Shown in pieces: positions 35,060-35,739 of a stretch of 40,943 nucleotides of DNA (position 1 is its first letter; each line of letters starts with the position of its first letter). The notes under the pieces are model-generated. The model saw only the letters and a program-made list of their open reading frames with translations. It did not search any database and was not told the DNA's origin. This DNA comes from a bacterium (GTDB lineage: Bacteria; Patescibacteriota; Patescibacteriia; 2-12-FULL-60-25): the NCBI GenBank assembly GCA_024654265.1, contig JANLIO010000055.1, forward strand, positions 1 through 40,943, given 5' to 3'. The translations under genes and the position numbers were made by a program.

Positions 35060-35135
35060 TGGTTGCGGGAGCGGGACTCGAACCCGCGACCTCCAGGTTA
35101 TGGGCCTGGCGAGCTGCCAACTGCTCCATCCCGCG
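35060..35135 (-). tRNA. tRNA-fMet (CAT), initiator type, CCA encoded
   Basis: Minus: CGCGGGATGGAGCAGTTGGCAGCTCGCCAGGCCCATAACCTGGAGGTCGCGGGTTCGAGTCCCGCTCCCGCAACCA; C1xA72 mismatch and A11-U24 are bacterial initiator hallmarks. Confidence 0.95.
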
Positions 35136-35138
35136 TTG
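35124..35138 (-). repeat. 15-bp direct repeat, copy in the intact tRNA-fMet 5' end
   Basis: CTCCATCCCGCGTTG, identical to 35428-35442; flanked in both copies by GAGCTGC. Confidence 0.85.
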
Positions 35139-35193
35139 GTTTGATGATGCTTTTTAGAAAAGCTCTTCCTTGACCTGACTTCAGGAATTTTTC

Positions 35194-35373
35194 TCACTTT
35201 AATGCTTCTGTTTTTGTAGCAAACTCTTCACGATGGACAAGATACCAAGGTCCTTTGTTTTTTGTCCAGCGACTCAATCCTTCGTTGTGGCAATACAATC
35301 GTTTTTCAATATCTGATGTACTTCCCTTGTATAACTGACCCTTAGGATTTTGAATGACGTAAACGAAATACAT
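35194..35373 (-). pseudogene. GIY-YIG endonuclease domain protein interrupted by in-frame TGA
   Basis: MYFVYVIQNPKGQLYKGSTSDIEKRLYCHNEGLSRWTKNKGPWYLVHREEFATKTEALK-TGA; frame continues EKFLKSGQGRAFLKSIIKPT, which resembles the usual C-terminus of the family. Confidence 0.8.
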
Positions 35374-35412
35374 ACCCGGTTTTCGACATTTCACCATGTA
35401 GAGGTGAGCTGC

Positions 35413-35427
35413 TCCGCCTGAGGCGGA
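35413..35427. repeat. 15-nt palindrome inserted in the D-loop position of a tRNA-fMet 5' fragment
   Basis: TCCGCC-TGA-GGCGGA. Confidence 0.8.
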
Positions 35428-35442
35428 CTCCATCCCGCGTTG
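35428..35442 (-). repeat. 15-bp direct repeat, partial tRNA-fMet 5' copy
   Basis: CTCCATCCCGCGTTG, identical to 35124-35138; GAGCTGC at 35406-35412 matches 35111-35117. Confidence 0.85.
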
Positions 35443-35453
35443 TTTGTTTTGGC

Positions 35454-35528: not shown

Positions 35529-35616
35529 TGGGCGAGTGGCGGAACTGGTAGACGCACAGGACTCAAAATCCTGCAGTCGCAAGACTATGAGAGTTCGATT
35601 CTCTCCTCGCCCACCA
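35529..35616 (+). tRNA. tRNA-Leu (CAA), CCA encoded
   Basis: GGGCGAG...CTCGCCCACCA with long variable arm; anticodon loop CTCAAAA. Confidence 0.94.
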
Positions 35617-35662: not shown

Positions 35663-35739
35663 GCCGGGGTAGCTCAGTTGGTTAGAGCGTGGGACTCATA
35701 AGCCCGAGGTCGCCGGTTCAATTCCGGCCCCCGGTACCA
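35663..35739 (+). tRNA. tRNA with CAT anticodon, probably elongator Met (Ile2 not excluded), CCA encoded
   Basis: GCCGGGGTAGCTCAGTTGGTTAGAGCGTGGGACTCATAAGCCCGAGGTCGCCGGTTCAATTCCGGCCCCCGGTACCA. Confidence 0.92.

Follow-up and report, generated by a model that had tools for sequence, protein, structure and literature searches.

A tRNA gene in the 40,943-nucleotide stretch of DNA analysed here (hereafter the window) raises the question of whether an initiator tRNA with C33, in place of the U33 general to tRNAs, is a working gene of a bacterial genome, and how such a base could be tolerated. The gene occupies 35060 to 35135 on the minus strand (CGCGGGAUGGAGCAGUUGGCAGCUCGCCAGGCCCAUAACCUGGAGGUCGCGGGUUCGAGUCCCGCUCCCGCAACCA), with its CCA end encoded, and was called as tRNA-Met (CAU) by ARAGORN and matched by Rfam model RF00005 (60.2 bits, E 1e-10). 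Standard tRNA numbering coincides with linear numbering in this tRNA. C1 (35135), a formylase determinant, was mismatched with A72 (35064) in the sequence and in the Rfam alignment, including its NC line, and A11 (35125), an initiator determinant of the D stem, was paired with U24 (35112) in the ARAGORN fold. Together with the CAU anticodon and the G30-C40 and G31-C39 pairs, these bases identify the gene as an initiator (tRNA-fMet), in agreement with the sequence-only reading, which had drawn this identity from C1xA72 and A11-U24. All stems were intact save for the C1xA72 mismatch that defines initiators.

The anticodon loop consisted of C32 C33 C34 A35 U36 A37 A38, with C33 at 35103 (plus-strand coordinate). 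Of the three consecutive G-C pairs expected at 29-31:39-41, 30-40 and 31-39 were present, whereas 29-41 was A-U (A29 at 35107, U41 at 35095). These base calls, which had also been made in the earlier reading, were confirmed from the sequence, the ARAGORN fold and the Rfam alignment. An altered fold of the anticodon arm was ruled out, as arms with C33 and with U33 gave the same predicted hairpin with the same energy.

In the genome to which the window belongs (872,652 bases in 94 contigs, 96.5% complete), a single initiator gene was detected by a 31-base pattern (up to three mismatches), by the Rfam tRNA search and by an initiator pattern, searches whose scope is genes unsplit by introns. The second, U33-bearing initiator that the sequence-only reading had allowed for was not found in this assembly by these searches. 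All 40 other distinct tRNAs typed by ARAGORN carried U33, so that the change to C33 is confined to the initiator. They included the elongator tRNA-Met (CAU; 35663..35739, plus strand), located about 0.5 kb from the initiator, and a tRNA-Leu (CAA; 35530..35616, plus strand) between the two Met tRNAs. In addition, a gene for tRNA-Ile with a UAU anticodon was present, and tRNA-Ile (CAU) was absent from the typed tRNAs.

The partners expected of a bacterial initiator were retained. The formylase gene (Fmt) was identified in the genome (G000:C16:5718-6656; TIGR00460, E 2.5e-87) and scored above the cut-off in 73 of 78 relatives, which makes formylation of this tRNA very probable; the idea that C33 reflects a loss of formylation was accordingly rejected. 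The C-terminus of ribosomal protein uS9 ended in SKR in the window genome and in KR, mostly as SKR, in each of the 30 genomes examined, whether with C33 or with U33. For 16S rRNA, no match was recovered in the window genome; among relatives, G1338 and A1339 were kept in every row read, in C33 and U33 genomes alike. Thus, no compensating change was seen in the uS9 tail (window genome included) or at 16S G1338/A1339 (relatives only). Two further features of 16S rRNA were observed: U1340 follows G1338 and A1339 in most members of the family, and in most members of the class and in G099 (L196-L211) GUACUCACCGCCC replaces GUACACACCGCCC, which is by count A1396U.

The class of the window genome, which we take to be ABY1 of Patescibacteria, includes members that correspond in coordinates to records named 'Candidatus Uhrbacteria' (G069 and G477) and 'Candidatus Magasanikbacteria' (G342 and G454). 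The sequence-only reading had asked whether C33 and A29-U41 are fixed in the clade. C33 proved to be nearly so in the family, being present, within an identical loop, in 36 of the 39 separately assembled genomes with a detected initiator (window genome included), and this argues against an assembly error at 35103; the 29-41 pair, as described below, varies within the phylum. The three U33 exceptions in the family (G018, G027, and G032) belonged to one genus. In a survey of 381 genomes across the phylum, 39 had an exact C33 pattern and 172 a U33 pattern, and the remainder had neither; both patterns require AGCTC in the D arm, which leaves diverged initiators untyped (about 170 of the 381 genomes). 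C33 was found in most of the class and in scattered other patescibacterial families, including f156 (G324, identical in coordinates to the 'Candidatus Dojkabacteria' record G488) and f55, in which one genus (g273) carried C33 and its listed sister genera U33. A 16S tree of 15 genomes placed at least three changes between C and U at position 33 on well-supported branches. When position 33 was left free, neither A33 nor G33 occurred among the AGCTC-type initiators listed.

Outside Patescibacteria, the matches listed from GTDB species genomes included C33 initiators in Weissella, Leuconostoc, Convivina, and Fructilactobacillus, as well as in metagenome-assembled genomes labelled, as deposited, Phycisphaerales, Elusimicrobia, Omnitrophota, Erysipelotrichaceae, Christensenella, and others. 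In 42 of 48 C33 genomes searched whole, no U33 initiator was found by the pattern used. By that pattern, the C33-only genomes included five of Weissella, Leuconostoc inhae, and Convivina, and others with the deposited labels Phycisphaerales (Planctomycetota), Elusimicrobia, Omnitrophota, Dehalococcoidia, and Erysipelotrichaceae. The remaining six of the 48 combined both types: Ensifer sp. Root278, for example, had one C33 initiator beside four with U33, and Fructilactobacillus lindneri had one of each. In the Weissella family, C33 was detected in 51 of 251 genomes. Many viral contigs also carried initiator-like tRNAs with C33, about half of them with A-U at 29-41 (L269-L387). A search of the open literature, which leaves out most subscription journals and preprints, found no description of a C33 initiator in bacteria. 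The earlier description of C33 as very unusual in bacteria was therefore too strong: the base is near-fixed in this family, common in the class, recurrent in other patescibacterial families, and, in many genomes assigned by their labels to other phyla, the only kind of initiator detected, among them those of cultured Weissella and Leuconostoc. By this distribution, C33 is a recurrent natural variant, neither an error nor a freak.

The 29-41 pair was tallied in the 187 patescibacterial initiators with printed sequences (39 with C33 and 148 with U33). It was G-C in 10 of 39 C33 and 39 of 148 U33 initiators (26% each; Fisher p = 1) and not G-C in the other 138 (74% of either class), and a coupling of A29-U41 to C33 was rejected on these equal frequencies. 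By contrast with this variation, 30-40 was G-C in 187 of 187 and 31-39 in 185 of 187. A review describes the three G-C pairs as conserved in all initiators, with 29:41 and 30:40 contacting G1338 and A1339 (PMC4611024). To judge from the sequences tallied here, the 29-41 pair evidently varies freely in Patescibacteria, independently of C33, and the three G-C pairs fail as a defining feature of initiators in this phylum. For most of the members typed in this large phylum, what is left of the textbook rule is two G-C pairs, 30-40 and 31-39.

Compared with tRNA-fMet of the E. coli type, the window initiator shares C1xA72, A11-U24, G2-C71, C3-G70, G30-C40, G31-C39, the CAU anticodon, A37 A38, and the presence of a formylase gene, and differs in having C33 and A29-U41 where the E. 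coli type has U33 and G29-C41. Initiators of Mycoplasma and other bacteria with altered three G-C pairs have reportedly been linked by the Varshney laboratory to changes in the ribosome or in factors. The window initiator resembles these in that its anticodon stem departs from the three G-C pairs, but only at 29-41, and the uS9 tail of its genome is unchanged and its relatives keep G1338/A1339. Eukaryotic initiators are unformylated and use eIF2, and in this respect the metazoan initiator differs from that of the window, where C33 occurs on a bacterial, formylatable tRNA. What the two have in common is C33 in the initiator with U33 kept in the elongators, metazoan cytoplasmic initiators being known to have C33 (PMC9023262). 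As a trait, C33 in metazoan and bacterial initiators is convergent and not homologous. This convergence supports the view that C33 is compatible with initiation.

We consider it likely, with good confidence, that 35060-35135 is the functional, sole, and formylatable initiator of an ABY1-group Patescibacteria genome, and that its C33 is a recurrent natural variant tolerated by a role restricted to the P site. In the mechanism that we propose, U33 would stabilize the U-turn needed by elongator tRNAs for decoding in the A site. The initiator would instead enter the P site directly, where it would be held by the G-C pairs 30-40 and 31-39, by G1338/A1339, and by the uS9 tail. Because it would be placed straight in the P site, any pyrimidine at position 33 should be enough for it, and the constraint U33 would relax to Y33 in initiators only. 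C33 could then drift, or be selected, to fixation repeatedly. A C33 initiator would also be expected to misread internal AUG codons less well, and C33 may be favored for this reason. That C33 is near-fixed in the family yet absent from most others is unexpected under simple neutrality. Editing or modification of position 33 in the mature RNA is possible in principle.

Five initiator genes among the relatives were interrupted exactly between positions 33 and 34 (G373:C61, G176:C24, G215:C29, G226:C8, and G260:C26; L228-L232), their halves being 189 to 640 bases apart; G373 belongs to the same class as the window genome. All five had U33 at the exon end and a terminal intron G, and each contained a guide, GGCU or GGCC, that can pair with G30 G31 C32 U33 via a U-G wobble. 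Four of the introns scored above the gathering threshold of RF00028, and that of G373 matched the model in part, below this threshold (34.8 bits against 50, E 6.9e-6). The G226 intron encoded a PDDEXK_5 protein (E 6e-45) that matched 2OST over 141 amino acids (E 1e-51), and 2OST is I-Ssp6803I, the homing endonuclease of Synechocystis. No relative of the G226 endonuclease was found on viral contigs or plasmids. We take the group I intron of Synechocystis tRNA-fMet, with its I-Ssp6803I-type endonuclease, to be the known counterpart of these elements, and a 2025 preprint by Nakagawa et al. is said to describe group I introns in patescibacterial tRNAs. Relatives of the window genome thus share with Synechocystis such introns in the initiator, at 33/34; the window initiator differs from the Synechocystis type in being intronless and in having C33, a base expected to break the wobble pair at the splice site.

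A search of 80 genomes with a 5'-half pattern revealed few further intron-bearing initiators, and no split initiator was found in the neighborhoods of elongator Met tRNAs in seven genomes. Introns were not the cause of every missing initiator match, since G155 merely has a diverged D arm (G155:C16, with GAGA/UCUC in place of GAGC/GCUC in the D stem). Other departures were also observed: in G151:C18 (L233), a group I intron lies within a tRNA whose ends resemble those of an initiator, and seems to follow U36 and not U33; the initiator of G260:C26 seemingly has U11-A24; and initiators of G072, G060, G097, G098, G118, and others have G at T-loop position 55 (GGTGCRA for GGTTCRA), which makes pseudouridine 55 impossible.

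These introns suggest another reading of C33, at least in Patescibacteria, as an intron-proof allele that escapes I-Ssp6803I-type mobile group I introns homing into 33/34. U33 would form the 5' splice-site wobble in the intron-bearing relatives, which makes C33 a candidate escape allele: a change from U33 to C33 would replace the U-G wobble with C-G and alter the homing site, and should hinder splicing. The logic is suggestive, and the shared U33, matching guide and terminal G of the five introns, the RF00028 scores of four and the 2OST homologue in G226 are in accordance with it. Nevertheless, about 82% of the typed intronless initiators also carry U33, and against this background five of five is too few to reach significance. 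Moreover, most typed U33 genomes are intronless as well, and C33 also occurs in Lactobacillaceae, outside the groups searched for such introns. We regard this reading as unlikely, although if it were true, decoding would not be the sole influence on base 33 of the initiator, a selfish element having a part in it as well.

Escape from a nuclease that cuts the anticodon loop of initiator tRNA, for example a VapC-type toxin, is considerably less probable still. Initiator-cleaving VapC toxins have reportedly been described by Winther and Gerdes in 2011, and C33 initiator-like tRNAs on many viral contigs would fit such an escape, but for one comparable arm on viral contigs C33 was counted 19 times against at least 119 for U33. 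The least credible reading, to which we assign almost no weight, is that C33 reflects a sequencing or assembly error or a decayed gene copy. The window genome is indeed a single draft in 94 contigs; against this, the same base was found in dozens of separately assembled genomes, cultured strains included, and the window gene has an encoded CCA, stems disturbed only by C1xA72, and no other initiator beside it in the assembly.

A putative mobile element of another kind was identified next to the initiator gene. Directly upstream, an ORF of 79 amino acids (35194-35433, minus strand) encoded a GIY-YIG protein (PF01541, E 2.4e-12), flanked by two 18-nucleotide direct repeats of the tRNA 5' end (35124-35141 and 35428-35445) that were 94% alike and 304 bases apart. 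The far copy (35428-35445) runs on into the TCCGCCTCAGGCGGA hairpin. In the 19 relatives in which the initiator neighborhood was read, the tRNA 5' end was not duplicated there and no such ORF was found. This arrangement suggests that 35124-35445 (minus strand) is a mobile cassette that inserted at the tRNA.

Returning to the preferred reading, in which C33 is tolerated by an initiator acting only in the P site, the repeated appearance of C33, restricted to initiators both in animals and in bacteria that formylate theirs, is a natural experiment on the role of U33. C33 initiators should not be discarded as pseudogenes by annotators. The prediction that follows is that tRNAs acting only in the P site would require no more than a pyrimidine at position 33.
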